The translations under genes were made by a program, and so were the position numbers. DNA of 64,000 bases from Paracyclopina nana (taxonomy: Eukaryota; Arthropoda; Copepoda; Cyclopoida; Cyclopettidae): NCBI GenBank assembly GCA_019096065.1, contig JAGUCH010000003.1:2542001-2606000 (forward strand), read 5' to 3'. Under the pieces are notes generated by a model. The model was not told where the DNA came from, made no database searches, and saw only the letters and a program-made list of their open reading frames with translations. Shown here in pieces: positions 25,070 to 40,789 of the stretch. Every line of letters begins with the position of its first letter. Positions within the stretch are counted from its first letter, which is position 1.

Positions 25070-25659
25070 AAGTTAATAAGAAAAACAATTTGCACTGTAA
25101 ACCGAATTTCCTCTCGAGTAATCCACTTAGCCTTGTGGCTCAGCTTTTATGCGCTCGCGCTCCCGATGCGTTATGAAGTAAATCATGACCCCAGGGATAT
25201 TTTCCACTAAGCAATGATAAATGAAAACCCTAGGTTTTTTAATCATGTCCCAACCAGAGCTTTAGTAACCGATTCGGGTCTGAATAGTTCCTGAAATTCA
25301 GTCATTGAAATGTTGCAAAATTACCAACATTACCAAGTCTTGATGTATTTTTCTTACTTATTTTTTGGGGCGAGGGCGAAGTGCCATAGAAATTGACCAA
25401 TATTTCGCCCAGCGGCAAGCGCGGAAATTCTCAGCTAGATGGCTGATCACTGACAACATGCGCCATCTCAGATGGGTAATTTTTTAGCTTAACTGGTTCA
25501 TAGCTTAAAAAGTACAATTTTGTTTGTAATACTATTTTTCAAGGTCTAGTTTGCTGAAAATTTTTTCGCTAATTTTAATGCTGGCTTTTGGGGTTGCTTT
25601 TTTGCATCAATTAAGAGTGCTACCTGAAAAGCTTACCAACAAAACTGGCTCCTTTTATC
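25070..25659. other. Intergenic DNA before the transposon cluster
   Basis: No coding region is seen. The DNA is AT-rich with no clear repeat until the inverted repeat that begins at 25660. Confidence 0.35.
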
Positions 25660-25898
25660 AGCTTTTGACTGTAAGCCACAAGCAATCCTGATACAAGCTT
25701 TCGGATTCGAATATCAGTTATTGGTCCCACTTGTATTGGTGTGAAAAGTTGGAAAATTAAGTTTCATGACCACTGGACCACTCTAGGGTGGTCAAGAGGT
25801 GGATTAAGCAAACAGCTGTTTAGATTAAGGCAAAAATGAATGGTAGCCTAGCTGGTAGAGCAGGTATGCCAGAAATCAACTATACCCCAATTATCTAG
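25660..25898 (+). repeat. Left copy of a 240-bp inverted repeat flanking the LTR element
   Basis: This stretch is, apart from a few differences, the reverse complement of 40152-40391. Landmarks are AGCTTTTGACTGTAAGCCAC at the outer end and ACCCCAATTATCTAG at the inner end. Only about 40 bp separate it from the left LTR, while about 320 bp separate the right LTR from the right copy. The pair therefore looks like the terminal repeats of a foldback or MITE-like element, of about 880 bp before insertion, into which the retroelement inserted. Confidence 0.85.
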
Positions 25899-25939
25899 TG
25901 TGCACTGGCATGTTTAAGATGATAAAAAAATGTTCGTTA

Positions 25940-26172
25940 TGATGAAATGGAGGTGAAGAACTGGGTTCGAACAGTTTTATGAGTAGAAGAGTGATGAAAC
26001 GGGTTTGAGTATACTTTATTTGCTAGGATGAAGTGAGCGAAGCAAACTTTAGCATACTGAAGTAAAAATGCAGGTAGAAGTAACATATACCAGCGGCGTG
26101 CGCGTAGAGCCAAAAAAAGAGAGATCGGGCGTCGTGACCTACTTGTGGTCGTCGTCTGGTTCCATTTCTTCA
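25940..26172 (-). repeat. LTR, 3' copy in element sense
   Basis: 233 bp, apparently identical to 39598-39830, with TG...CA ends. It also directly abuts the first exon of a plus-strand gene, so it may act as a promoter in both directions (inference). Confidence 0.93.
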
Positions 26173-26190
26173 TAGATATCCCCCCGGAAG
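26173..26190 (-). promoter_or_regulatory. Candidate polypurine tract
   Basis: In element sense a GGGGGGATATCTA stretch ends directly at the 3' LTR. That is the expected place for the second-strand primer. The purine run is short (GGGGGGA), so the call is moderate. Confidence 0.45.
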
Positions 26191-26218
26191 AAGAAGCTAG
26201 CCTTCCACGATGAAGGCT
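26191..26218. other. Stem-loop over the start of the first antisense gene
   Basis: CTAGCCTT, then an 8-base loop, then AAGGCTAG (26197-26220) form a perfect 8-bp stem. The ATG of the first plus-strand gene (26210) overlaps the 3' arm side of the loop. It could matter for translation or for reverse transcription next to the polypurine tract; function unknown. Confidence 0.5.
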
Positions 26219-26775
26219 AGGACCAGTCAGGTATGATTGAAGAAATGAATCACGACGTCTATAATAATGTGATTTTTCCAATTTAGGTGTCGATTTGCAT
26301 TGCCTATGTCGATCTTCTTATGATGATCCATCGTTTGCCCATGGACGAACTAGGGAATGGCGATGGGGTAGACCAGAGAAGTGTCAATTTTAGGTTGGAG
26401 GCCGCATCAGTGGTGAATACGTTGAAAAGGATCATTTTGTCGTTGAAAAGGAGACAGTACGAGGAGGTGTGCCGGTATTTGAAGAGATCACCAATATTCA
26501 GGAGAAAAGTGCGGAGGGCTCTTGAGAAGAATCTTCACATTGACTTGTCATATTTCCGTGATCTGGTTTTAGAGGGCCCCAACCGAATAAGGGCAGCGTC
26601 ATCTTCAAAATCCGAATCAGGCATTATGATGGAGACAAGAGAGAGTCTTGAGATTACTATTTCAAATATGGGTGATGAAGATGACCAAGTGGAAGCTGTT
26701 TCCAGGGAAGTCATGTTGTGTGATGAAATATCATTAGAGTATGATACTTTTGAGAATGAGAAAGATGATGAATAA
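26210..26775 (+). CDS. Antisense accessory gene A of the LTR element, unknown function
   Basis: Two exons, 26210-26230 and 26287-26775, with a 56-bp intron (CAG|GTATGA ... ATTTAG|GTG) that keeps the frame, about 169 aa. Without the splice the second exon has no ATG at its left edge, though internal ATGs follow (MMIHRLPMDEL). The middle is basic and helical (RRQYEEVCRYL, RKVRRALEK); the C-terminal third is Ser- and acid-rich. No family is recognised. It runs opposite to gag-pol and converges on the small membrane ORF at 26845-27372. A position next to the LTR and a basic-plus-acidic make-up would suit a nuclear or RNA-binding regulator, but this is only a guess. Confidence 0.55.
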
Positions 26776-26844
26776 ATCATTAGTGATGTTTTTGGGCTGA
26801 TCTTCTCCATGTGGACTTATTGTAGATTTCGTTGTGGACTGGTA

Positions 26845-27372
26845 TTAAAACCTGTTTCTTGCTTCATGTCGGGCGAGTCCTCTTTGGCGGTTAGTAGTGG
26901 AGTTTCCCCTGAAGGCAAGCCTGTAAAGTTTCTGTACTGTGTCTTCAATGGACTTCAATCTGCTTAATTCATCAATGTCCAGAATGAGTTCTTCAATTGA
27001 GTGCGGTTCACAAATGAAATTGATCTTTTTGATTGGCGAATCCATAAGGAAGTGAAAATAGTTGTTGCAGAAAGAGTAGTTGATGATGATGCGACAAAGT
27101 GTTCCGTGATATTCTATGGTTGAGTTTGATGAAGCTTCAACAAATGTCACTAAATTGAAGGCTTTCAAGATTTTAGAGATGCCAATGGTCACATGAATGA
27201 TTTGAGTTTTCTTCATTTTTCTTAAAGAGATAATTTTGGCCACGATCGTAAACGCTCCAATGATCATGCAAATGAACGAGGCCAAGGTAAGCCATGTTTG
27301 CATGATTAGATTGGTGCTTTCGAGCAATAGTTGCAAAAGATGCATCTTTGTCTGGTAGCTGTTGTCAGGCAA
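26845..27372 (-). CDS. Small membrane protein ORF at the 3' end of the LTR element
   Basis: 175 aa in the same sense as gag-pol. One strong membrane segment lies near the N-terminus (about 26-50; TWLTLASFICMIIGAFTIVA), followed by a basic stretch and a Cys-containing soluble part that ends in an Arg-rich tail. No family is recognised. It lies between antisense genes A (convergent, 69 bp) and B (divergent, 119 bp). Expression would need a spliced subgenomic message or a separate promoter. Confidence 0.5.
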   Translation of the reverse strand: MPDNSYQTKMHLLQLLLESTNLIMQTWLTLASFICMIIGAFTIVAKIISLRKMKKTQIIHVTIGISKILKAFNLVTFVEASSNSTIEYHGTLCRIIINYSFCNNYFHFLMDSPIKKINFICEPHSIEELILDIDELSRLKSIEDTVQKLYRLAFRGNSTTNRQRGLARHEARNRF

Positions 27373-27491
27373 CTAGCTTGAATTCGGCTTAGGAGTGCAC
27401 GTATAGCTGAACAGACTTGTGGTGGCAACAGGTGAAGTCAGGAGTGTGGACCTGTAGCGGGCTGAATGGGCTGTATTAACCTGTCTCTTGC

Positions 27492-28153
27492 ATGAGGTTG
27501 AGAAGCAGGGACATGAGGTCAACTTTTTTGGGTAGCATTCATAAGCCAGGTCATTCGAATTTTCATTCCCGGTCAGTCACCATTACGGTTTTTTGCGAAG
27601 TCTTTGTCAAGGTAAGTTACACTTTAGCATTTTCTTCAGGGCTGTGGAAACATTTGATTTGTAGATGGCTGATTTCATAACGGAGCTTATTGCCCATGGC
27701 CTCCAATTCTGGATGGCCAACGATTCTAGTCAAGAAGTAATTCGTCTTTTGAAGAGATTCCTTGTGGATTTGGAGGCGTTGACGGAGGCTGCGTCGGGCT
27801 TGTCACCTCGTCTAAGGGCTCTTTGGGTCCTCGCCATGGCCATTCTGGCCTTGGCATCACTTGACTATCGGATGGCATGGCGGGATTACTATGGAGGGCC
27901 AAGTAGAGTGGAAGCTGGGAGATGGCGACGAAGACTTTTGAGAAGGCTGATCTTGGCTCTGATTGGCATCATTGTAGGCCTGGCTGGAGGCCTTGCCAGC
28001 CTCTTTTATGGAGTCCTCGTCTGGTCAGGGTCAACCAGGCGATACGGATTGATGGCTATGGTGTTGATGATCCTGGTGGTGTCACAAACCATGTCCTATT
28101 CGCCACCAGTTTCTCCATTCTGTTTCTTCTTCCCTCTTTTTCCTTTCTGTTAA
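27492..28153 (+). CDS. Antisense accessory gene B of the LTR element, multi-pass membrane protein
   Basis: Two exons, 27492-27611 and 27665-28153, with a 53-bp intron (AAG|GTAAGT ... TTGTAG|ATG) that keeps the frame, about 202 aa. The second exon itself starts with ATG, so the shorter form (162 aa) is also possible. Three hydrophobic segments are visible (LRALWVLAMAILALASL, LILALIGIIVGLAGGLASLFYGVLVW, LMAMVLMILVVS) with an Arg-rich loop between the first two. The C-terminus is Phe/Pro-rich and low in complexity. No family is recognised. The multi-pass topology makes me think of a viroporin or an envelope-associated factor, but this is conjecture. Confidence 0.55.
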
Positions 28154-28246
28154 GCTTTTGTAAATAGATGTTTCCTCAGCCTTTTTAAGTTTGCTAGTTT
28201 TGCTTTACTGTCAATCACTTTGTTTAATCATTGACTTTTCAGCGTC

Positions 28247-29151
28247 ATGTCGTCAGTTCAGCGTATGAACGAGTACCGGCTCAGTAAGGTGGCATCGGAG
28301 GTCGGCGAGATCCGGAATGAGGTGTCCAAGTTTGTGGATCCGGATTGGCTTAAGGCTAATATGTGTCAGCCTGAAGAAGGTGTAGGGTCACTGTTGATTG
28401 GTGAGCTCGGTTTTTTGGTGGTGATGGTGTACATGGTCCTCGTCTTCCTCGTCTTCCTCGCGTACATGGTGTACGGGTTTTTCACTCGTAAAGTAAGTTG
28501 ATATGAATTTTAAAGGCAGCTTTCACTTTCACTGTTCCTGTGTTCTTCAAGGCTCTCCGGAATGTGTGGCTTGACATCTTTGTCAAGTTCCTGGCAGCTG
28601 TGTTCTTCCCGCTGACGTTTGGACCATTTCTGGGGTATGTCTTTCATGACATGTGCGGGAAGGAGCGGTTGCCAGTGAGGCCGAAGCCTACTGAGGCCGC
28701 TCAAACGTTGGCCAATTTGGTGCGCGTGGTCTTGCCTTACTTGTTAGCCACGAACTTCGATGGGAATGACGCGTTTGTGAGAGAGGTATTGTCTGGCGAG
28801 TACCTCTCTCTCGTTTTCCACCCGCCAGGCTCCACAGAGAGGACAGTGTTGGTCCGTGACCTCATCCTCCCCCGTTTACCGAGATGGCCCGAAGATGTGG
28901 AGTCAGGTCAATCGAGTTGTCTTACCCCATCAGCACCTTTTGAGGATGTCAACCTCGAGGATGGCATTTATGATGCTGTCGGCGATAACGGCGAGGTAGT
29001 GGCCTCGGCTGGACTGGCCAGTAATGGCAATGGCGTCGTCGGTGACCAGGAGGGTCAAGGGCAGCAGCCCTTTCGTCAAGGGGGGCCTGGATTCTTCCAG
29101 CCAGGTTGCCCCAACTCCAATGGAAGTCCCGAGTCGGAGGATGGCCATTAG
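28247..29151 (+). CDS. Antisense accessory gene C of the LTR element, two-TM protein with Gly-rich tail
   Basis: Two exons, 28247-28492 and 28552-29151, with a 59-bp intron (AAA|GTAAGT ... TTCAAG|GCT) that keeps the frame, about 281 aa. An acceptor-like GACTTTTCAG lies 4 bases before the ATG, so an upstream leader exon is likely. A soluble N-terminus is followed by a hydrophobic segment (FLVVMVYMVLVFLVFLAYMVYGFF), then a second one (FLAAVFFPLTFGPFLGYVF) just after the splice. A soluble domain and a Gly/Gln/Asn-rich C-terminus end it. No family is recognised. GC content is visibly higher than in the flanking element. Confidence 0.6.
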
Positions 29152-29769
29152 GGCCAAGATGGCCCAAGAGAGGAGGTCAGCTCGAATGGCTGTCCTTTTA
29201 CAGAAGAGGAAGCTTTAATCTAGTCACTTTTTTTTAATAATTGTTATGATGTTAAGCCAGCAAATGACCAATATATGGCAATTACTTTTGAAAGGTGTGA
29301 TGTGACTGATTTTTGAAGATTCCTTATAATTGACAGATTTACTTTCCTTATTATGGCGTCCGGAAGTAGGCCTGAGATGACTTGTCAAAACATCAGCTGA
29401 TAGATGAATGAGGATGAATTTTCCCACGGTCCACATGACAGTTGTTGTTGTTTACTAATCATCAAGCCGTGTGAATCGAGCAGTTATTTTTAAGGCTAAT
29501 TTGGGAAAATTCTTGCTTTGATGGTTTTGATCATTTTCAAAGATTTTGCGAGAATATAATCAGAGAATGCCATTACGCCATCGAGGGCACCAATTGGTGA
29601 GGATTTTGGCGTTTGGATCCATGGAGAATCAGGTTGGAAAATGAAGTGTCTAGATCAAGCTATTTTTCCGACCAACTTAATTTTTGTTGACATTTTCCTA
29701 AAGCATGGCAAAACAAAGTGATTTTGTTAATTTTATTCGAAAGTGGATGCAAGTGATTCCAAATGCATT

Positions 29770-31083
29770 TTAATCAGTTTTACACTGGGCCTTTTCAACT
29801 TGGGAGGCCGCGGTGACATCAGCGACGATTTTCTCAGTGGAAGAAGTGTTCACCTCAATGTTGTCGTCATTTTCGACGTTGTTGCCGTCAGAATTGTTGT
29901 CATCAGCGACATGAACTTCAACTGCGGTTTCAACGTGAATAGTGGGAGTGTTGGATGGAGTTGAAGGTGAGTTTCCAGGTTTTGGCATCATCTCCATGAG
30001 CTTGGCCTTTTTGTGCTTCATGGCCTCAAGTTTACGCTCATTTTTGATAATGCTTTTCTCCACAGACTTTAAGATGTCCTTCGAGGGGTCAAGAATATCC
30101 TCGTCGAAGTTTTCATTTTCCATGGAGTCCTTGGCTTTCCTCATCTTGGTAAGTCGTACTTGGATTCTGGATCTCAACTTTTTGTCTTGACGTTTCACGT
30201 ATTTTCTAGCTCTGGTTCCAAGCTGTCTCAGAAGGAAAAAGTTGTTCTCTGAGCACTTATGAAGGAGATATGTGGAGAATGCCAAAGCCAGGAGGACTAA
30301 GATCGAGGTGGGGATGGTGAGCCACATCGTCAAGGTGGGATTGTTTCTCAGAGCGGTGTCGAATCCAGGGGTTCCAATCAATTCGTCATAAATGGGGACC
30401 GTACCAGTCTTGACATCTTCTAGTGAGGCAATTGTAGCTTGGAGCTCAATGTTGAGGACCTTTTGATTGGATAGATCCTTTTGGAGGTTAAGGATTTCTG
30501 TATTGAGGCGTTCTTCTTGAGCTGACATGGTAATTAGCATATCCTCAACCTTGGATTTGGCATAATCATAGAGTTTTTCCAGGATGATGACTTTTCTTTG
30601 ACAAGGGACATCACGGAGACCTTGATTGGGATTCAATCTGGATGAAGCATTGATCAAATCTTGAGAGGCCACACTTATGTTTTGAAAAAGAGCCTCTTGC
30701 TCCTCAAGATCGGTGTCTGCCGTTGGATCCAGATAAGTAGATTTGTTATTCTCCTTCTCTTCTGTTATCATGGCAGCATAGGTTGTTTGGCACTTGTCAA
30801 GTTGATCAGTCAAGGTGGTAATTTTGGTCTTCAATTCCTGGTTGTTTTCCTTGAGTTCAGCTTCGGATGCAAGACAGGTGGTTAGTCTTTGTTGATTGAG
30901 GACATAGTTATTGAGGAATTCAATTTCAGAGATTGATTTGGCTTCTATGGCAGAAATCAATCTTAAGGTGATGACGAAGAATTGGAGTGGACTCATGTTG
31001 CTTCTTCTTGGTAGTAGATGAGACTGAGGTTTTGCAATTTGATAGTGTATCTTCTTCGTGCTTAATGTGCAATAATGGCTCAT
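29770..31083 (-). CDS. Coiled-coil type-I membrane protein of the LTR element
   Basis: Open frame of 437 aa. An internal ATG about 29 codons in starts a signal peptide (SPLQFFVITLRLISAIEA) and is the likelier start. The ectodomain has heptad-rich segments (ELKENNQELKTKITTLTDQL; EERLNTEILNLQKDLSNQ), several N-glycosylation sequons and few cysteines. One membrane segment follows (LTMWLTIPTSILVLLALAFSTYLL), then a highly basic juxtamembrane region and an acidic, Asn-rich cytoplasmic tail. Coiled coils plus one TM resemble the layout of fusion or attachment proteins, but no homology is recognised. It lies directly downstream of the env-position ORF. Confidence 0.65.
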   Translation of the reverse strand: MSHYCTLSTKKIHYQIAKPQSHLLPRRSNMSPLQFFVITLRLISAIEAKSISEIEFLNNYVLNQQRLTTCLASEAELKENNQELKTKITTLTDQLDKCQTTYAAMITEEKENNKSTYLDPTADTDLEEQEALFQNISVASQDLINASSRLNPNQGLRDVPCQRKVIILEKLYDYAKSKVEDMLITMSAQEERLNTEILNLQKDLSNQKVLNIELQATIASLEDVKTGTVPIYDELIGTPGFDTALRNNPTLTMWLTIPTSILVLLALAFSTYLLHKCSENNFFLLRQLGTRARKYVKRQDKKLRSRIQVRLTKMRKAKDSMENENFDEDILDPSKDILKSVEKSIIKNERKLEAMKHKKAKLMEMMPKPGNSPSTPSNTPTIHVETAVEVHVADDNNSDGNNVENDDNIEVNTSSTEKIVADVTAASQVEKAQCKTD

Positions 31084-31165
31084 TAAAATTGCTGTTGTGT
31101 TGAACTAGATGTAAAATGCTTGGCTATACTGTATTTGAAGGCGAAAAGTTGATGTTGCATATCCA

Positions 31166-32809
31166 TTAGTCATAGTAGGGGTGAATTTTGCTTGCTGCTT
31201 GAATTTCATCCTCACTTGTGTAACAGGAATAGTTGCTGTGTCTCCTGGGATCAATGCTATGGACATGAGCAACATCAATCACTTTTACAGATCTTTTGGC
31301 TCTTGGGCTTCTTCTTGGTGGTCTTGAAGGTTTTGTGTTGTCCATTTGTTTCTTTGATTTTGAATCTTGAGTCACAAAATAGACATCACTTTTATCATTT
31401 TCCCCCTCGCTTGAAGAGTCCTTTTTTGATGGGAGAAAAGTGGCCATTTCAGTTTCATTACGATTGGTAGTTTTGGGACTCGCCTTGTTGGCAGGTACTT
31501 TAAAAGCAACAAATCTTTTTCTTTTATGGCACATAAATCCATCTTTCCGACAGCTTCTTATGACGAGGAAAAGGCTTGTGATCAAGGTGACAATTCCAGA
31601 TATACCGCCTATGATACTAAATATAATATCCAGCACTTTAGGATTTGTATGTTTAGTGATCCAATCTGGCAGTTTTTCTTTTGCCTTATCAAAAATCTCA
31701 GTGATGTTGATTGATGGCTTATCAGCTGGAAGTGTTTTTATCACCTTTGGCCTTTTTGTCTTAGTGGGTATAGAGCCATTAATAACTGTAGTAGGAGGGT
31801 TGATTTCAGCGGAGTTTTGTTTTTCTTCTTCATCACAAATGCAAATTTGGTTTCCATCCATAGATTTTGCACTATTATCCAATCTCTGAATAATATTGTC
31901 CGCTGTGACATAATCATTCACTAGATTAGGAAGAAGGTCAAAGATCAGCTCCATATTGGGTGGAGTAGATTCTAGTAGATTCTTCACTTCTTGTAAAGGG
32001 TGGTCCAGAAAGAGTTCATCCACATTGCTTTCTTGATATTGATCGCACCAATCAGCTTGATTCAACTCTTGGATTAACTCTTTTCCATTTGGGAAGTTGT
32101 CTTTGATAGTAGTGAGTTCTGCTGAGTAAACTTTTCGTAGGGAAGTGTACTTTTCATAATTGTCCGGAATGGCAGCTTCACACAGTGTCAAAGCTTGTCC
32201 GTTCCTGCAAGCCACATCTTCAATTACAAAAATAGTGTTGTCGTCGTAATTGTTTGGTACGACGATCCGATAGCACTTGTTTTCATCAAATGAAGTAGGC
32301 TTGACACTTAGATTCTCAACATTGTCTCCCCAGTATAGTGGAAATGGTTCACCGTCGAAGTAGTAGGAATCAGTTCTTTTGTCATATTGAAGATTTACCC
32401 AGATTTTCTTGTCATCGAATTTGAAGTTAGGTGGGTCTCTCACACCTGCCTCTATCTTCTTTAAAACAGATGCAAAATCACCTTTGGGCTTGATGAAAGT
32501 CATCTTCTCGATCTCGCAGACCAATTTTGAAGTGGCAAACTTGTCTTGAACATTGATCAGCTTGTAAACTTTGTCGTTGACAATGCGACCTTTTGCAAAA
32601 GTCTCCACATCAGTAATTTGGTTCGAGATGGCATCAACTAGAGGCTCTAGGAGCTGATGTAGTTGATTGAGTGTTTCTGACAAGGACACAATGTTGTAAG
32701 CCTTGCAGAAAGGAGTGCTTGTCACACTCGTGTTGTGGAGCAGTGTTGCCAACGCCAAACTCCACAGAAGTTGTTTCATCCTTGTACTCATAGTTGGGCT
32801 AGAAGTCAA
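31166..32809 (-). CDS. Env-position type-I membrane glycoprotein of the LTR element
   Basis: 547 aa directly after integrase. An acceptor-like TTGACTTCTAG falls within the first codons, so a second ATG (about 6 codons in) is the likely start on a spliced env-type message. Signal peptide (LLWSLALATLLHNTSV), an ectodomain of about 370 aa with several cysteines and a few N-glycosylation sites, one membrane segment (IIFSIIGGISGIVTLITSLFLVI, about 405-428), then a basic tail of about 115 aa. Position and topology are those of env proteins in Gypsy-type errantiviruses. I cannot match the ectodomain to a known env class, nor see a sure furin site or fusion peptide. Confidence 0.7.
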   Translation of the reverse strand: MTSSPTMSTRMKQLLWSLALATLLHNTSVTSTPFCKAYNIVSLSETLNQLHQLLEPLVDAISNQITDVETFAKGRIVNDKVYKLINVQDKFATSKLVCEIEKMTFIKPKGDFASVLKKIEAGVRDPPNFKFDDKKIWVNLQYDKRTDSYYFDGEPFPLYWGDNVENLSVKPTSFDENKCYRIVVPNNYDDNTIFVIEDVACRNGQALTLCEAAIPDNYEKYTSLRKVYSAELTTIKDNFPNGKELIQELNQADWCDQYQESNVDELFLDHPLQEVKNLLESTPPNMELIFDLLPNLVNDYVTADNIIQRLDNSAKSMDGNQICICDEEEKQNSAEINPPTTVINGSIPTKTKRPKVIKTLPADKPSINITEIFDKAKEKLPDWITKHTNPKVLDIIFSIIGGISGIVTLITSLFLVIRSCRKDGFMCHKRKRFVAFKVPANKASPKTTNRNETEMATFLPSKKDSSSEGENDKSDVYFVTQDSKSKKQMDNTKPSRPPRRSPRAKRSVKVIDVAHVHSIDPRRHSNYSCYTSEDEIQAASKIHPYYD

Positions 32810-32867
32810 AGTAGAGTGTAGAGGTTATCATTCATCCATCATCATTTGTATCACATTTGTCTAATAT

Positions 32868-34517
32868 TCATTCTGCGAAATGTACAGTAGGTTCATATGG
32901 CATTGCTTGTTCATCTTCTTCATCATCCAGGAACATCTGGTCAATGATTGGAAGCTGAGAGTTGACACTTTGAGCTTTTTCTTGCTCCTTTAGTCTTTTT
33001 GATTCACCACGTGTCATTACACGGCCCTTTTCAATGGGCTTGAAAATGTCCTCATCGAAGAATTCGGGAGTCTTTTGGATTTCCATGTACGGTTCGAGAG
33101 ACTCCAATGTGAAGTGTGATCCAAGCATGAATCTAACACTTAATGGCAAATTTCCATAGAGCTCAGCGAAGCGAGGAGAGCATTTCTTCAGGAGATTCTT
33201 GTGAGCAGGAAAGACAACTCCATTGAAACTTTTTAGAAGGCATGTGTTTTGCAAGTTCTTGAGGACCAGGTAAGGGCTCGTGTGATAACGTACCCAAATC
33301 TTTGGCTTTTCATGTTTTCTCTTATCAAGCATGAAAACGTAAGTGCCAGGCTCATAGTTGATGTCTTTTCCAGGAATCTTTTCTCTTGCTTGCTTTTTGA
33401 GCTGAGTGTTCTTATTGATTGCTTCTTGTATAATGGCGTCATGAGCTTTCCAGATGTCTTTGATTGTGCTTGGTTCGACAATGTCCTTTTCTGTAATTGG
33501 TCTTAGTCTGTCGTGATCAACTCCAAAGTAAGCATAAATGGGGCTAATGTTGCCAATTCTTGGTGAGGGGCGAGTGTTCAAGGATAGTTGAACAAGATAC
33601 AAGAGTTTGATCCAGGGTAGTTTAAGTTGATTGGTCAAAATCCGGATGAGGTTGCTGACTTGTTGAACTGCATTTTCCACAATTGAGTGAGCTTGAGGAG
33701 AGTATGGCATTGTCACATGTGGGTGGATGTCATAATACTCCAGAAGTCTTCTGACTTTTGATGAGGAGACAAGGTTGGAGGCACCATCAGAGATGAGGAC
33801 TTTAGGTGGTGAAAACACTGCAATGATGTATTGTTCAATAATCTTGGCAATTTCGTCACCAGTCGCATTCTTGACGGGTACTATGATCTTGTAACCAGTA
33901 AAGTACTCAATCATGACAAGGATCTTGGAGCTTTTGTAAAACTCAGGATAGCCTTCGAGGATGTCAATTGAAAAGGTATGGCCTTTTGGTGATTCTCCAT
34001 ATGAGATAGGTTTTAGCTTGGCCTTTCCAAGTCGATTGGGTTTGGCGAGTTGGCAAAGATAACATTGGATTGTGAAGTTTAAAGCTGACTTAAATAACTT
34101 GGGATGATAATGAGTCATAGCAGCCATTCGTGCCAAGCTTGTTCCTCCTATATGACAATCCAAATGAAGATAGGCTAAAAGTACACCAAGAAGAGAATCG
34201 GGAATATAAATAAGGCTCCTTTCAGTGGATTGGTCTGGATTTTGAACAGTTTTGTATAGAACATTTTGTTCAAAAGCAAAGCCTTTTGGTGGATTTCTCC
34301 TCATTTTTTGAATATTGGCATCCTTTTCTTGTTCCATTGCGATGTTATCAAGAGTCAGCAGTTCAGCGAAGTTCATGTTTTGGATTTTTCTTACCAATGT
34401 AGTTAATTTGGATCTTCTCCGGAATCGAGTCAATGTAGGAAAAAGTCTTTTTAGGTTTTTTCTTGCGTGTCCCAAGCTTTTGTTCTCCATTGAACTTGGG
34501 TTCAAAACCTTCTTCAT
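32868..34517 (-). CDS. Integrase ORF of the LTR element
   Basis: About 549 aa. It holds an HHCC zinc-binding region (HLDCHIGG ... CYLCQLAK), then a DD35E catalytic core: the first Asp in FSIDILEG, the second in LISDGASNL, and the Glu in HSIVENAVQQ at about 35 residues. A C-terminal extension of about 230 aa follows, with an SH3-like stretch. Family knowledge: it inserts the element's cDNA in the nucleus. The frame is offset by +1 from the RT-RNase H frame, with a 155-nt overlap. The downstream end lies 59 bp before the env-position ORF. Confidence 0.9.
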   Translation of the reverse strand: MKKVLNPSSMENKSLGHARKNLKRLFPTLTRFRRRSKLTTLVRKIQNMNFAELLTLDNIAMEQEKDANIQKMRRNPPKGFAFEQNVLYKTVQNPDQSTERSLIYIPDSLLGVLLAYLHLDCHIGGTSLARMAAMTHYHPKLFKSALNFTIQCYLCQLAKPNRLGKAKLKPISYGESPKGHTFSIDILEGYPEFYKSSKILVMIEYFTGYKIIVPVKNATGDEIAKIIEQYIIAVFSPPKVLISDGASNLVSSSKVRRLLEYYDIHPHVTMPYSPQAHSIVENAVQQVSNLIRILTNQLKLPWIKLLYLVQLSLNTRPSPRIGNISPIYAYFGVDHDRLRPITEKDIVEPSTIKDIWKAHDAIIQEAINKNTQLKKQAREKIPGKDINYEPGTYVFMLDKRKHEKPKIWVRYHTSPYLVLKNLQNTCLLKSFNGVVFPAHKNLLKKCSPRFAELYGNLPLSVRFMLGSHFTLESLEPYMEIQKTPEFFDEDIFKPIEKGRVMTRGESKRLKEQEKAQSVNSQLPIIDQMFLDDEEDEQAMPYEPTVHFAE

Positions 34518-37365
34518 AGACTTTTTCTAGATATTCTTGGAGATCATTTAAAGTGACAACCTTACCAAGCTTGAACGGTGAAGTGATGAGAATGGGTTCT
34601 AGTTGACCATCATTTTGAACAGCTTTATACACTATGGGAAAGTTTCTAGTCATGGCATCTGCACACAAATTGTATTTTCCTTGGCAATGTAGGAAGATGC
34701 ATTTGAATGGCATTGAGCTAATCGTGATGCACCATCTCACTAGCTTTGGAGGTGGATTTGGGGACAGCTTGGATGATTTGAGTATCCACAGAAGTGCCAT
34801 GTTATCACCACAAACAAAAGTTGTCGGAACTCCATGAAGTAGATGAGCAAAATGTTCGAGTGATTTCACAAGGGCAAGGCATTCAAGTTCCAGAATGGTA
34901 TATCTGGATTGCTGCTTGTTGAGCGTTGCACTGTAAAAACCCACAGGACAAATTATGTGTAATTTGTCCTTTTCCTGAAGATATGTAGAGATGGGTTCCA
35001 ATTCGTCAAGTTCTTCATGTCTGATGTCTCTGATGAAGAGCTCTTCGTTGTTGGTTTTCAAGTTACTTTCATATTGCTTCAATGCTTCATCTATTGGTGA
35101 CAGTGTTACCATTCCTGGATTATTTTTTCCAGATGGAGGGATGACTGGATGTTTTGTGTTCAATTTTGACTTGCTATCGAGGGATTCCTCTTGATAAAGT
35201 TCTTCATGCCATTTGGAGACTTCCTCCCTGGAGAAGGACTTGATCTGATAGCAATAGCCAGCGATGGCATTGAGGCTGCTGTCATAATGGAGATAGAGTG
35301 GTTCGTTATAGTTCACAAAGTACACCGTTGTAGAGTTGATAATGGCATTTTTAATATCGTCAAAGGCTTGATCTTGTTCGGTACCCCAGGCAAAGTCTTC
35401 ATCTTTCCGTAAAAGTTTGGTGAGTGGCTTCAATTTTTCAGAAAAGGCATAAACTAAGTTAGCGTTCCATTGAGCCAAGCCGATGAAGGACATCAAAGTG
35501 TGTTTGTCCTCAGGCTTTTTAAAGTTCTTGACAGCAGACAAGTGTCGAGGAAGAATGGAAAATCCATTTTGGTCCAAGTGTTTGCCGAGAAGTTCGATGC
35601 TTTTTTGGGCAAACTGGAATTTTCTTGGTCGTAGTTTGATTCCAGCATTGTAAAGTGTTCTGAGTATGATTTTGGTTTGCTGAATGTTGAGTTCAAAGCT
35701 TTTTGAATAAAGACAGACATCATCAGAGTAGTTGCACACAAAGTTGCTCTTACACGGAGATTTGTCTGCAGTATCAAGGATGCGGCTCATGCAGTAATTG
35801 TAGTAGGATGGAGCATTAGAGAGACCAAAGATCATTCGAAGGGGAAGCCACTGACCTGAATTGGTGACAATTGCACAGATCTTTTGTGCTCTCTCTGTCA
35901 TGGGAATAGAGAGAAAGGCTGAGGCAATGTCAATGGTGGTGAAGTATTTGGGGTTGGCCAATGAGATTTCTTCGATGATGGTGTTAATTGGCTTATAGGG
36001 GAACTTAACAGGTTTTGTAACCTTGTTCAGTTCACGAGCATTATACACTGCTCTTAATGTTCCATTCCTTTTTGTGACCAAGAAACATGGCATGGCCCAT
36101 GGTGAAAATCCTTTTTTCAGAACTCCAATTTTCTCAAGTTCAGCGAGTTGGTCAGCCAGTTGAGCTTCTCTGAGCGGATCCAAGGTGTAAGGTTTGATGT
36201 AGACAGGTTTTTCAGTTGTAGTTTCTATGTCAAAGAAGATTTCAAACTTTTCATGGATCTTTCCAATGTCGGATTCATGTGTGCTGAAAAGATTGGGTGT
36301 TTCCTTTTCGATGAATGATATGATGTCTTCAACTGCAGATTTATCGATGTGAGAATGATTATCACGAATAATCATTTTCCAGTCATCTTTTTCTTCTGTA
36401 GTCAAGCATGGGAATCCGGTTGGTTCAACTGTCTCTTCATCTATTTGGTCGGTGGCTTCATCCTCAATGGTTACTTTTCCAATGATTTCATTGCAGGAAA
36501 GTGGGAATCTTGAAGTAGACTTGTTTTCCATGGTGGTGGTGAATTTTCCCCCTCTGACTGAAAGTGATCCAACTGTCTTTAAGGGTGATTCACGGGGAAT
36601 TGACAAGTTATATTGGCCATCCGGAAGATCCAGAGTGCCAGTGACCTCATTTAATCCGGGTAGAACTTCAATCTCGTCCACTGAAGCCCATGAGTCTAAG
36701 CCTTCCGGAGATGGCAGAGACTTTTGTTCAGATCTTTGCTCAAAGCTTATGATGAGGTTTGTTCTACCTTTTTGTTGGATTATTTGAAGGTTGTGAGTGG
36801 TTATGAAATCTAAACCAAGTAGATTGCTTGAAGAGGCAATGAAAAATGTGTGCTTAAACTGAAATCCTTTTAGTTGGAAGGTTAGCTCGATTGGACACTG
36901 GTATTGTGGTATTTCATTCTTTTGTACATCGACCAATGTGAGTTTTTCATTAGAAAGGGAGTACTTGTCTTTAGGAAGCTCTTGGAAAGTTTTGACGGAG
37001 AGAATTGAGACTTGTGCACCTGAGTCGACAGTGAAGTCGACTTTTAGGCCAAAGTCTGTTGTCAAAGCTGTTTTTAGAGGACTTTCGTTGATCACTGGAA
37101 GATCGAGTCCTTCTAAAATGATATCTGGAGTAAGAACTTTGGAGACTTGCGAAATTTCTTGATAGTCTAATGAGGATGCGATTTCCAAGGCAGCATCTGA
37201 ATCTAACCAGTCAGGTTCGATTGAAGAGGAAATGGTGGGATTGTCATCATCTTCAGTGTCAATATCTGCGAGTGAAATGTCCGAGAATGTGACTAATGAT
37301 ATTTCTTCTTTTACAGTTGTTGTTTTTGGAAAGGGCCGAGCTAGTTTAAAGGAACTGCTCGACAT
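34363..37365 (-). CDS. Protease, reverse transcriptase and RNase H ORF of the LTR element
   Basis: About 1000 aa. An aspartic protease near residue 115 has the VDSGA motif. The RT has the Ty3/Gypsy pattern (FFTIDIASAFLSI-like block, GLSNAP, catalytic YSDD). RNase H shows LELECLALVKSLEHF and DNMALLWIL. The N-terminal overlap with gag carries a -1 slippery heptamer. The last codons overlap the integrase frame. Catalytic residues appear intact, so the product may be functional. It acts in the virus-like particle in the cytoplasm. Confidence 0.92.
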   Translation of the reverse strand: MSSSSFKLARPFPKTTTVKEEISLVTFSDISLADIDTEDDDNPTISSSIEPDWLDSDAALEIASSLDYQEISQVSKVLTPDIILEGLDLPVINESPLKTALTTDFGLKVDFTVDSGAQVSILSVKTFQELPKDKYSLSNEKLTLVDVQKNEIPQYQCPIELTFQLKGFQFKHTFFIASSSNLLGLDFITTHNLQIIQQKGRTNLIISFEQRSEQKSLPSPEGLDSWASVDEIEVLPGLNEVTGTLDLPDGQYNLSIPRESPLKTVGSLSVRGGKFTTTMENKSTSRFPLSCNEIIGKVTIEDEATDQIDEETVEPTGFPCLTTEEKDDWKMIIRDNHSHIDKSAVEDIISFIEKETPNLFSTHESDIGKIHEKFEIFFDIETTTEKPVYIKPYTLDPLREAQLADQLAELEKIGVLKKGFSPWAMPCFLVTKRNGTLRAVYNARELNKVTKPVKFPYKPINTIIEEISLANPKYFTTIDIASAFLSIPMTERAQKICAIVTNSGQWLPLRMIFGLSNAPSYYNYCMSRILDTADKSPCKSNFVCNYSDDVCLYSKSFELNIQQTKIILRTLYNAGIKLRPRKFQFAQKSIELLGKHLDQNGFSILPRHLSAVKNFKKPEDKHTLMSFIGLAQWNANLVYAFSEKLKPLTKLLRKDEDFAWGTEQDQAFDDIKNAIINSTTVYFVNYNEPLYLHYDSSLNAIAGYCYQIKSFSREEVSKWHEELYQEESLDSKSKLNTKHPVIPPSGKNNPGMVTLSPIDEALKQYESNLKTNNEELFIRDIRHEELDELEPISTYLQEKDKLHIICPVGFYSATLNKQQSRYTILELECLALVKSLEHFAHLLHGVPTTFVCGDNMALLWILKSSKLSPNPPPKLVRWCITISSMPFKCIFLHCQGKYNLCADAMTRNFPIVYKAVQNDGQLEPILITSPFKLGKVVTLNDLQEYLEKVYEEGFEPKFNGEQKLGTRKKKPKKTFSYIDSIPEKIQINYIGKKNPKHELR

Positions 37366-38624
37366 TGGTGATCAAGATGGAAACCTTGCATGCATTTGGA
37401 GCATGCATTGAAGCTAGGAGTGGAGCTCTTGTAAATGCAATTTTCAGCGTTGAATCCACACAGTAAATGTCCACATCTCGCACAAGAAATAGAGATTCTT
37501 TCAAGAGTTTTCAAAGAGATGCGATACTTTCCCGGTTGAGTTTCAACAAATACTGGAAAGTCAATTGGTGCATTTTCAGGAATAATGCGTCCAAGATTGT
37601 CAAACTTGTAGGGAATTCGCGAATGTGGATCATCCAGCATCTTGAGCTTTGGGCCTCTCTTTCTGGTGTTCCGTTCATACGAATCGATTTCCATGAGAAG
37701 AACATTCATAAGAGGGCCTTTTTTGTCAAACTTGGCTGCTATTTCAGAAAATTTGGGGTCTGAAATTTTGTAGACAATCAGCTTAGACTTTTGAGGTCTG
37801 TTGTATCCTCCCTTTTCGTTTGGGTAAGTCTTGGGCTGATTTTCAAGTGCAGCTACGGTTTTCATCAATAACTGGTTCGTTTCTTTCATTTCAGAGATGA
37901 TTTGATTATTAGCAGCGAAATGGCCATTGGAGTGGTTGGAAGAACCGGTTTTTATGCTTGCGGTTGTGGTATGCTCATTATTTATGGCTTGAGGGGCCGC
38001 TTCCAAGTTTTTTACTACCCTTTTTGTCATGGAAGGATGGGATGTAACCATGTTTTTGAACGTGTTCAAATCCATGGGTGGAACAAAGGGTGATATTTTT
38101 TGGAGTTCCGCAATCTTTGTCCGTTCAAGGTTAACTGCCTTTTGTACCTCTGAAGGCAGCTGGGGAATGACATGATCGATAACTAACTTAGTCAAGGCGT
38201 CGTTCCTTTGTTCTGGGAAGGCCAAACGAGCCTTTTCGACTATCTTGGTTAGCGAGTCATCGACCTTTTTCGTGTCAATTTTGGAGTCATAAAACTCGCA
38301 CAAGAGTTCGTCTGGTCTCTTGCTGCAACAATAGCTCTCAAGGATTTCCTTGATAGCTTCATTAATATCATCATGACTCTTGAAAATGTTGGTGAAAGTG
38401 TCCTTGAGTTGAGAGTTAGTCTGGTGTATAATGAGGTTGGCAAACTGCTTGGCTGTTAGCTCGCCTGCGTGTCGCTCAGCCATAGCTTCAATAATGTGCC
38501 TCACATCTGGGCTTGCCTTGCTCAACCTTGGGAACTCTTTCAAGTTTTCTCTTTTTAGTTGGACAAAAGCGTGTTGGACTCTCTTGTATCTGATCCAGGA
38601 ATGAAAGGGACGGTTTTCAGGCAT
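37341..38624 (-). CDS. Gag, C-terminal part, of the LTR element
   Basis: About 427 aa in a frame -1 relative to the upstream gag frame. The first 270 residues look like a helical capsid domain. Near the C-terminus are Cys/His clusters (CARCGHLLCG, CSKCMQGFHLDHQC) that could be a nucleocapsid zinc-binding region of unusual spacing. It ends at a TAG directly after a UUUAAAC heptamer. Confidence 0.75.
   Translation of the reverse strand: MPENRPFHSWIRYKRVQHAFVQLKRENLKEFPRLSKASPDVRHIIEAMAERHAGELTAKQFANLIIHQTNSQLKDTFTNIFKSHDDINEAIKEILESYCCSKRPDELLCEFYDSKIDTKKVDDSLTKIVEKARLAFPEQRNDALTKLVIDHVIPQLPSEVQKAVNLERTKIAELQKISPFVPPMDLNTFKNMVTSHPSMTKRVVKNLEAAPQAINNEHTTTASIKTGSSNHSNGHFAANNQIISEMKETNQLLMKTVAALENQPKTYPNEKGGYNRPQKSKLIVYKISDPKFSEIAAKFDKKGPLMNVLLMEIDSYERNTRKRGPKLKMLDDPHSRIPYKFDNLGRIIPENAPIDFPVFVETQPGKYRISLKTLERISISCARCGHLLCGFNAENCIYKSSTPSFNACSKCMQGFHLDHQCRAVPLN
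37344..37350 (-). promoter_or_regulatory. -1 ribosomal frameshift heptamer UUUAAAC
   Basis: On the minus strand the gag frame reads CCT TTA AAC TAG, so T TTA AAC lies in the correct phase with the stop directly behind it. Slipping back one base enters the protease-RT frame. UUUAAAC is among the best-known slippery sequences. The downstream pseudoknot or stem was not worked out. Confidence 0.75.
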
Positions 38625-39232
38625 GGAATTCTTTGCGTTTGGATGAGTTTTGGAATGAGTTGAAGGAAGTCGCTCCTGAGTTCTGCTGCGATAATATCTC
38701 GTTCCATTTCCACCCTGTTTTGGACTGAATTGTGACGAGCATATTCCTTCAGATCCTTAAGGGACTTTTCATATTTATGAGTTTTCCCTTGGAGAAGGTT
38801 GCTAGTTCCATAAGCCAAGCTTTGGAAGAGTGGGGCTACTCCAGCATTGGCATGAGGAGATGGTGCTCTGGAGTCTCCTCTGATGGAGGATGTCACACTT
38901 GATCGGCGAGATCTTCTTGGCTCAGGTTGGTCTTGTGGAGGTGAGTCCGGAGATGGTTCCATGCGCTGTAGAATGGCCTTGTTTGACTCATGAACATCAT
39001 TCAATGCTCTGGTGATGGTTGAGAAGCTGGTGTCGACGTTTTCTTGCATTTTGAGGAGGTTTCTCTCAAGCTTCTCAATTTTCCTGTTGGTGGCAAGTTT
39101 TGCTCTGCGATCTTGTGAAACTTCATTTGGAGGCACGGCCATGCGAGCTGCAATGCCTAGTAGCTCATTTTGTATGGCGTTCTCTAAAGTCTCTTCGTGG
39201 TGGTCATGATGATGAGCACCAGATTCAGCCAT
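38555..39232 (-). CDS. Gag, N-terminal part, of the LTR element
   Basis: 225 aa starting at the first good ATG after the LTR leader. It contains a His-rich start, a coiled-coil segment (ATNRKIEKLERNLLKMQENV), a Ser/Pro/Arg-rich linker and a helical C-terminus. It overlaps the larger gag frame by 70 nt, and a -1 shift is needed to pass between them. A CCCUUUC heptamer (38603-38609) is in the correct phase. Confidence 0.7.
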   Translation of the reverse strand: MAESGAHHHDHHEETLENAIQNELLGIAARMAVPPNEVSQDRRAKLATNRKIEKLERNLLKMQENVDTSFSTITRALNDVHESNKAILQRMEPSPDSPPQDQPEPRRSRRSSVTSSIRGDSRAPSPHANAGVAPLFQSLAYGTSNLLQGKTHKYEKSLKDLKEYARHNSVQNRVEMERDIIAAELRSDFLQLIPKLIQTQRIPCLKTVPFIPGSDTRESNTLLSN

Positions 39233-39576
39233 TTTTGAACCTAATGTACGTGAAAGTAAGTTGTTGATAGGAAAGAACTTCTATGCTCCGCCCAGATTGC
39301 CTTAAGGGCTTTGTTTGAGCTGTAAGTCACAACACGGGACTCTGAATTAAGGGCCTCTTTTAACTTATATGGGCGCGTAGCCGGAAGTGTCCTTTTTTGA
39401 GGTAGCTAATCTCGTCTAAGGCAAGGTTACCTTTATGGTTCAGATGGAGTGATGGAGCACTGTACGACTTTGTTGAGGGAGTCGATCCAAATTAGACTGG
39501 CTAGGTCTTCTTTAGATGATATTATTTCTCCCCCGCTCTGGAAAAAAGCACTTCACTTCCACTAGTGATCTTGATA

Positions 39577-39593
39577 CAATTCCGTGGGAGCCA
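39577..39593 (-). promoter_or_regulatory. Candidate tRNA primer-binding site
   Basis: In element sense TGGCTCCCACGGAATTG begins 4 bases after the 5' LTR. It starts with TGG, as expected for complementarity to a tRNA 3' CCA end. I could not name the tRNA. Confidence 0.5.
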
Positions 39594-39597
39594 ACTA

Positions 39598-39830
39598 TGA
39601 TGAAATGGAGGTGAAGAACTGGGTTCGAACAGTTTTATGAGTAGAAGAGTGATGAAACGGGTTTGAGTATACTTTATTTGCTAGGATGAAGTGAGCGAAG
39701 CAAACTTTAGCATACTGAAGTAAAAATGCAGGTAGAAGTAACATATACCAGCGGCGTGCGCGTAGAGCCAAAAAAAGAGAGATCGGGCGTCGTGACCTAC
39801 TTGTGGTCGTCGTCTGGTTCCATTTCTTCA
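39598..39830 (-). repeat. LTR, 5' copy in element sense
   Basis: 233 bp, apparently identical to 25940-26172. It should hold the promoter for the gag-pol transcript. Confidence 0.93.
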
Positions 39831-40151
39831 TATCGTACATTACTTCACTTCCCCTTGTCGGTTTTATATGTGTTACTGTGTAAAGTCATTTTTCAAAAAA
39901 ATATATATTTTTGAATTGCTCTAGGAGCTCCATTAGCAGACATACTAACTACTATAATAATTTTTCTTTTTTGTATTGACAGTTCTAATCTTTGACTTTC
40001 ATCCAGAGTTGAAAAATCAAAAATCCATCCACTGACATGGGAGGAAAATGCCATCAAAGTAGGGTCCGAAAAAGTGAATTTTGGCCATTTTTCAACTTGT
40101 TTGTTTACGTTTTTTAACTTTTTTCCCTGACACCTAGAGACCCCCTAGGGC

Positions 40152-40391
40152 CTAGATAATTGGGGTATAGTTGATTTCTGGTCATACCCACACTACCAGC
40201 TAGGCCACCATTCATTTTTGCCTTAATCTAAACAGCTGTTTGCTTAATCCACCTCTTGACCACCCTAGAGTGGTCCAGTGGTCATGAAAATTAATTTTCC
40301 AACTTTTCACACCAATACAAGGGGGACCAATAACTGATATTCGAATCCGAAAGCTTTTATCAGGATTGCTTGTGGCTTACAGTCAAAAGCT
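40152..40391 (-). repeat. Right copy of the 240-bp inverted repeat
   Basis: Reverse complement of 25660-25898 with a few mismatches. It begins at CTAGATAATTGGGGTATAG and ends at GGCTTACAGTCAAAAGCT. Between it and the LTR lie about 320 bp with no coding, presumably the interior of the interrupted foldback element. Confidence 0.85.
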
Positions 40392-40789
40392 GTTAAGATA
40401 TTGCACCTCTAATTAGAGAACCAGCCAATTTTAATTGTGAGCCCACTCGGACAAGGCAGTTCTCAGCCCTCCATGGCTTCTACTAAAATCCACTAGTAGG
40501 AATATGGCTCTTATAGTTTCGCCCTATAAGCCAGGATCTATTCTCCAGCACATTTACATATTTACTGAGTACTCACTCGTTCTCACAAGCGGCGTATATA
40601 AGAATGTCCAGGTTGGACACACCTGCGCAAAGGCGGTGAAAGGTAGGCCCATGCATCTGCTACTGGCAGTAGTTCTTGTATTGAGATCTTTGTTTATTTT
40701 GCTCCTTCGAAGATTTGTTAGTCAATTAAAATATGAATTACATTTTGAAAGATGCTATCTAGAGCCAAGGCTAGCATTGAACTTATTGC

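Follow-up and report, generated by a model that had tools for sequence, protein, structure and literature searches.

The window analysed here, a 64,000-nucleotide stretch of the genome of the copepod Paracyclopina nana (assembly GCA_019096065.1, contig JAGUCH010000003.1, positions 2,542,001 to 2,606,000), contains at 25938-39832 one Ty3/Gypsy-type retroelement. It is quite probably a young member of an env-bearing Ty3/Gypsy (Metaviridae-type) family, with a working gene set spread over both strands. A gag-position region, the protease, reverse transcriptase (RT) and RNase H, the integrase and two env-position genes (envA and envB) lie on the minus strand, the sense strand of the element, and a 3-kb block beside the 3' long terminal repeat (LTR) holds the genes g1, g3 and g4 on the plus strand and g2 on the minus strand. 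We regard the antisense genes as very probably an integral, translated part of the element. The LTRs and the features of the block are the following.

25938..26174, minus strand: 3' LTR, 237 bp, identical to 39596-39832
26210-26230 and 26287-26775, plus strand: exons of the antisense gene g1, separated by the intron 26231-26286; 169 amino acids, no membrane segment
26845..27345, minus strand: sense-strand accessory gene g2; 166 amino acids from the first ATG, one hydrophobic stretch near the N-terminus
27612..27664, plus strand: 5' leader intron of g3, ending exactly at the g3 start codon
27665..28153, plus strand: antisense gene g3; 162 amino acids, two hydrophobic segments
28247-28492 and 28552-29151, plus strand: exons of the antisense gene g4, separated by the intron 28493-28551; 281 amino acids
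39596..39832, minus strand: 5' LTR, 237 bp

The original prediction, made from the window sequence, had placed one retrovirus-like element at 25940..39830. That it is one element was borne out, and its true span is two bases wider at each end. The LTRs, described there as near-perfect, are in fact identical. The assignment of gag-pol and env-position genes to the minus strand agrees with the Pfam matches, the order of frames and the two minus-strand membrane proteins, and the arrangement of three plus-strand genes and one minus-strand gene beside the 3' LTR was found again as the same block in 10 copies. The claim of intact frames held for g1-g4, envA and envB of the window copy, and failed for gag and pol, each of which is split over two overlapping frames.

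To determine the distribution of the block, we searched the 92-Mb host genome with the 3.5-kb block region and with the LTR. Of the 11 matches to the block region, ten are full-length, with 96-100% identity, and one spans 822 bases. Of the 23 matches to the LTR, 22 form 11 pairs and the last is a distant relative (79%, at C2:3020468), where 3 kb of sequence gave no match to the proteins of the element. The whole block is carried by 10 of the 11 LTR-paired copies, the eleventh being internally deleted; the nine block-bearing insertions other than that in the window are located elsewhere, on a further six contigs, and every one has a separate target duplication. These duplications are 4 bp long and perfect in all ten full-length copies (TCGT at both flanks of the window copy). 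Nine of the ten LTR pairs are identical, and the tenth shows no substitution and two gap columns. The block is thus a standard component of this recently mobile family and moves with it. The original prediction had proposed, as a check, looking for other full-length copies with the antisense block, and the outcome excludes a private capture or an assembly join. Nine of the copies (the one on C1 being left out) differ by up to 1.97%; since their LTR pairs are undiverged, we infer that most of the sequence change arose in replicating lineages before the present insertions took place. The C1 copy (L018) is the most diverged, lying 2.9-3.5% from the others, with g2, g3 and g4 frame-broken and an LTR pair without substitution; it may be a defective copy that recently moved in trans, or its LTRs may have been converted.

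The signals expected of the block genes are well kept among the ten full-length copies. The GT...AG borders of the three predicted introns (26231-26286, 27612-27664 and 28493-28551), all named in the original prediction, are retained in 10/10 copies, as is a CAG directly before the g4 start. An AATAAA at 26771 overlaps the g1 stop and is present in nine of the ten. Open frames were found in 10/10 copies for g1, 7/10 for g2, 9/10 for g3 and 7/10 for g4. A distance of 36 bp separates the g1 start codon from the inner edge of the LTR, and g4 has hydrophobic segments at residues 54-72 and 87-113 followed by a polar C-terminal tail. Neither g2 and g3 nor the second exons of g1 and g4 gave a Pfam match above the cut-off, and this includes the bZIP and TRP28-type domains.

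The main selection test was carried out on nine copies and 133 variants in the region, with the widely frame-broken C1 copy left out. Synonymous and nonsynonymous changes numbered 19 and 7 in g2 (P 5.6e-6, omega 0.15, whole 175-amino-acid frame), 12 and 3 in g3 (P 1e-4, omega 0.11), 30 and 13 in g4 (P 1e-7, omega 0.19), and 7 and 9 in g1 (P 0.15, omega 0.52). When the plus-strand genes were pooled, 49 synonymous and 25 nonsynonymous changes were obtained against 51.9 nonsynonymous expected (P 1.3e-10), and for all four genes together 68 and 32 against 70.2 expected (P 4e-15). The other reading frames served as a control. For g2, g3 and g4 the opposite-strand frame that shares third positions with the gene was also low, although less so (P 0.0005-0.005), and the remaining four frames were unconstrained; for g1 no frame stood out. 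The integrase, in the part examined, gave 25 synonymous and 8 nonsynonymous changes (P 4e-8, omega 0.13), envA 20 and 18 (P 0.002, omega 0.37) and envB 14 and 20 (P 0.09, omega 0.59, not significant). It should be underlined that the copy sets behind these last three counts differ slightly from that of the g1-g4 test: they omit one envB row with gaps (L013) and the two integrase rows of C1, envA and envB include C1, and envA and the integrase include the internally deleted copy. As judged by these values, g2, g3 and g4 look about as constrained as the integrase and more constrained than env. The variants show at least g2, g3 and g4 to be, as far as substitution patterns can tell, protein genes under purifying selection. 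The view that this is a functional set and not captured junk is accordingly strengthened, the block being regular in a mobile family and most of it being under purifying selection.

Relatives of g3 and g4 also occur outside the family. Diverged g4 relatives lie at C7:5.62, C3:1.094, C8:6.744 and C3:6.162 Mb, with a short piece at C3:6.190, and diverged g3 relatives at C3:1.094, C8:6.744, C3:5.764 and C3:6.190; there is also a weak g3 match at C7:1666346 (E 0.008). At C3:1.094 and C8:6.744 a g4-like gene is immediately preceded by a g3-like frame of the same orientation, and at C3:6.190 a g3-like frame likewise precedes the short g4 piece. The alignment of the g3 pair scored 76 against a shuffled mean of 31 (0/500 shuffles as high), and that of g4 far higher. 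At C3:1.094 (L077), GTAAGT and an AG adjoining the ATG precede the g3 relative, as judged by eye, as they do in the window. The relatives at C8, C3:5.764, C3:6.190 and C3:6.162 hold stops or breaks, the g4 relative on C7 is broken by a stop at residue 192, and that at C3:1.094 reads 212 residues, with a stop at 213 and a shorter tail. Taken together, these loci show that g3 and g4 belong to an older predicted gene pair, also present as scattered, mostly decayed relatives. Over 140 codons, the C7 and C3:1.094 g4 relatives are separated by 41 synonymous changes and 19 nonsynonymous ones (P 1e-9), and because of this synonymous excess the older g4 gene appears to have been constrained too. The C7 locus moreover holds an envA-like frame (27% identical) less than 2 kb from the g4-like gene. 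Separate direct repeats, of 113 and 51 bp, flank the g4-like and envA-like genes within this locus (L076, C7:5616000-5624000), and a 433-bp tandem array of six copies adjoins the region.

How such an element could express its genes may be outlined as follows. Sense RNA from the 5' LTR would give Gag, Pol, the two env-position proteins and g2, and a second, antisense transcription unit would start in or beside the 3' LTR and run back towards env, its splicing giving the g1, g3 and g4 messages. The g1 message should begin in or right at the LTR because the g1 start codon is only 36 bp from the LTR edge, and the simplest reading would be an antisense LTR promoter for g1; we put the chances of an LTR-proximal antisense promoter at about even. 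The g3 and g4 messages might be spliced from the g1 transcript, with acceptors immediately ahead of the two start codons, or might arise at an internal promoter. With a separate promoter, the antisense proteins could be produced independently of gag-pol. The antisense introns would survive retrotransposition because the genomic RNA that is reverse-transcribed is the opposite strand, which lacks splice sites there. If expressed as predicted, the element would illustrate how a retroelement can gain a second transcription unit whose introns are safe from removal by reverse transcription. Least certain is the role of the products: g3, g4 and the sense-strand g2 could be small membrane proteins, working together with the envelope proteins at the membrane or on the host cell, much as retroviral accessory proteins do. 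We propose such a membrane or envelope-helper role only tentatively. The same caution applies to the most far-reaching picture, that of an env-bearing animal Metaviridae lineage with a true ambisense genome, in which an LTR-driven antisense operon of spliced membrane-protein genes, built on an old g3-g4 module common to at least two families, would aid particles at the membrane and correspond, in antisense, to the accessory genes that complex retroviruses have.

Several observations weigh against a working antisense gene set of this kind. Taken alone, g1 is without significant constraint. When the C1 copy is included, the synonymous and nonsynonymous counts become less favourable (7/10 for g1, 20/8 for g2, 15/15 for g3 and 41/33 for g4). 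Four-fold sites of g1, g3 and g4 do not have the strand skew common to envB, protease-RT and g2, and third-position GC (guanine plus cytosine) content is higher in g4, a pattern more suggestive of a separate origin than of long residence. On the plus strand, neither AATAAA nor ATTAAA occurs between 26844 and 31082, so that g3 and g4 are without a nearby canonical polyadenylation signal. Structure models gave no fold support for function: the g3 model is all-helical, with a low predicted local distance difference test (pLDDT) value of 52, and the envA model, built from a 4-row alignment, has a pLDDT of 33 and is unusable. Among 298 candidates from the protein database none matched g4 exon 2 at E 0.01, and neither g4 exon 2 nor envA had a relative among the viral contigs searched. 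At C7 the envA-like and g4-like genes are on the same strand, not convergent as in the window; barring rearrangement of the locus, this layout speaks against a simple ambisense ancestor common to the two. Finally, the internally deleted eleventh copy (L039, C3:9795072-9805441) is without the equivalent of window 27002-30509. The deletion, with about 12 bases of shared sequence at its junction, removed g3, g4 and parts of g2 and envB. Since this copy has nevertheless identical LTRs and a GAGG target duplication, the block may not be needed in cis.

The origin of the block allows two further explanations. A host gene pair, g3-g4, with its neighbours may have been captured in antisense orientation by the ancestor of the family and kept as harmless, the selection having acted mainly while it was a host gene. 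Retained introns are what one expects of antisense capture from genomic DNA, one g3-g4 pair lies 2.6 kb from an innexin exon with no other element protein match (E 0.01, 6 kb around), and the third-position GC of g3 and g4 leans to that of their relatives. The innexin match itself is in keeping with an invertebrate host. A host gene would, however, have a fixed place, whereas these relatives number several, are dispersed and are for the most part broken; the tested variants distinguish copies of the element itself and are nonetheless mainly synonymous; and the failure of g4 exon 2 to find a similar protein also argues against a cellular source. We therefore consider host capture unlikely. The block may instead have been acquired by recombination from another, perhaps exogenous, virus, with or after env, and now be a module common to more than one element family. 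This is somewhat unlikely as well, and possible in view of the paired travel of g3 and g4 in at least two sequence families, the closeness of the envA-like and g4-like genes at C7, the lack of a similar cellular protein for g4 exon 2 and the lack of Pfam matches above the cut-off. No donor was seen among the viral contigs, a collection probably poor in invertebrate viruses, and the C7 locus is rearranged. Viral acquisition addresses origin alone, and is compatible with a working gene set on both strands.

Two other explanations concern what the plus-strand frames are. They could be by-products of an antisense RNA that itself regulates the element, for instance through double-stranded RNA and silencing, and antisense non-coding transcripts have been described for other elements (PMC7264820). 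The synonymous excess in the g3 and g4 frames, together with the conserved start, splice and stop signals, makes this highly improbable as the whole explanation; an added RNA role beside coding is compatible with the data, and for g1 alone the choice is undecided. That the window copy is an assembly join or holds a nested private insertion is refuted by the other copies and by the absence of bounding repeats: the same block is present in 10 insertions, each with its own target duplication, and no repeats bound it. The reading we prefer thus remains that of a young Ty3/Gypsy copy with coding genes on both strands.

Antisense genes in retroelements are known as such. The original prediction had taken HTLV bZIP-type genes (HTLV, human T-cell leukaemia virus) to be the only known case. 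This is not so, given the antisense open reading frames (ORFs) of plant and fungal elements and the ASP protein of human immunodeficiency virus 1 (HIV-1), as described in PMC7264820, PMC11963269 and PMC10186651. The plant elements Grande, RIRE2, Retand and PvRetro13 and the fungal element Boty are described as having antisense ORFs in the stretch from pol to the 3' LTR (PMC7264820; PMC11963269). The plant Ty3/Gypsy elements resemble the present one in that most members of a family carry antisense genes in this position, and in having a long region between pol and the 3' LTR (PMC7264820; for Retand PMC11963269). In the copepod element an antisense coding gene likewise lies between pol/env and the 3' LTR in 10 of 11 copies, its coding nature being indicated by the selection test for g3 and g4. 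In Grande, a promoter upstream of gene23 drives transcription of the antisense gene (PMC7264820), and the plant antisense products are described as nuclear or DNA-binding, GENE23 being nuclear, PvRetro13 having an SMC domain and Retand a TRP28 domain (PMC7264820 and PMC11963269). In the present element, by contrast, the block has introns, encodes two predicted antisense membrane proteins and matches no Pfam domain above the cut-off, and there are two genes in env position. Neither PMC7264820 nor PMC11963269 uses the term intron in its main text. As no TRP28-type homology is found in Pfam above the cut-off, the block is not of Retand type by descent. Boty, from Botrytis, has the antisense gene brtn and differs in being fungal and in having one gene named.

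In retroviruses, HBZ/APH of HTLV and ASP of HIV-1 are antisense proteins with an antisense promoter in the 3' LTR, and ASP, a membrane protein, is found together with Env (PMC10186651). These cases differ from the present block in that asp maps within the env region, in that one antisense protein is named per virus in that source, and in belonging to another virus family. Pfam gave no bZIP match of the HBZ type, and in comparison with the 3' LTR promoter of HBZ and ASP the present element can be judged by position alone, from the g1 start near the LTR. Among animals, the bdelloid rotifer elements Juno, Vesta and TelKA are likewise LTR elements that gained env-like or other ORF3s; in the part seen of the paper describing them the terms antisense and reverse orientation are used for small RNAs only, and intron is absent (PMC5408684). 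The introduction of an annelid survey mentions antisense extra ORFs (PMC8220671).

The unusual part of the copepod element is the combination of three antisense genes and one sense gene, introns and two predicted antisense membrane proteins in an env-bearing animal element. The novelty claimed for several spliced antisense membrane-protein genes in one element holds in so far as a limited literature search gave no precedent for it in an env-bearing animal element, which is weak evidence; it does not hold for antisense ORFs at that place, which were already known. A multi-gene, spliced, membrane-protein antisense set in such an element thus looks like a new variant. The nine young copies, differing by up to about 2%, provide a direct coding test in which two antisense genes are nearly as constrained as the integrase. 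If expressed as predicted, the element would be an animal system for asking what role antisense retroviral membrane proteins such as HIV-1 ASP have.

The remaining features of the element belong to its sense strand.

29773..31104, minus strand: envB, second env-position gene; 444-amino-acid open frame with one membrane segment (258-276)
31169..32824, minus strand: envA, first env-position gene; 552-amino-acid open frame with a membrane segment (404-422) and, by eye, a hydrophobic start
32871..34526, minus strand: integrase part of pol, a separate frame in the window copy
34366..37371, minus strand: protease, RT and RNase H part of pol, assigned by Pfam
37344..39280, minus strand: gag-position region, two overlapping frames in the window copy, called gag by position alone
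39583..39593, minus strand: primer-binding site, two bases inside the 5' LTR, with 11 bases complementary to a tRNA-like 3' end

The LTRs, the short target duplication and the tRNA primer site, the tRNA being recognised by pattern alone, are those of a Ty3/Gypsy (Metaviridae) element. The 11-base tRNA-like 3' end matching the primer-binding site had 6 matches in the genome against 0 in a reversed control; the pattern consisted of T-loop and acceptor with CCA added. An earlier tRNA pattern had given 0 matches in a genome search. A sense-strand AATAAA is located at 26020, inside the 3' LTR. In pol, Pfam detected RVT_1 (E 1e-18) and RT_RNaseH_2 (E 3e-20), the protease being clearly below the cut-off and the integrase match (rve, E 1.4e-7, 32.2 bits) just below the cut-off of 32.6. 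With these two matches sub-cut-off, the order protease-RT-RNase H-integrase, as given by Pfam and the order of frames, is that of Ty3/Gypsy (Metaviridae). The best solved relatives of the RT are from Ty3 (4ol8, E 2e-38, and 7q5b), with retroviral RTs behind them, in a structure-database comparison. In the window copy, pol is interrupted between RNase H and integrase, where it falls into two overlapping frames; pol is a single frame of 1446-1500 residues in several other copies, and gag is a single frame in the one other copy examined for it. The gag-position region gave no Pfam match above the cut-off.

Errantivirus-type Gypsy elements with env have the order LTR-gag-pol-env-LTR and a Ty3-type RT, and their env is related to the baculovirus F protein. 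The present element shares the order and the Ty3-type RT; it differs by its antisense block and by envA and envB, neither of which matched a Pfam family above the cut-off or a solved structure (PDB) by sequence. In the sequence database, envA has relatives at 98% and 56% identity (2 among 6826 candidates). Its cytoplasmic tail is rich in proline, arginine and tyrosine, and long parts of it are conserved in a relative whose overall identity is 56-58%.

A DNA transposon encloses the retroelement within its long inverted repeat (window 25655-25868 and 39842-40397). The arms of this repeat are about 550 bp long and recur elsewhere at 88-89% identity, and many of the matches are facing pairs about 2-5 kb apart, as seen among the best 40 of 173 candidates. 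The genome also holds many other LTR families with long open pol frames, as judged from the best 150 of 658 RT candidates, many of which scored equally.

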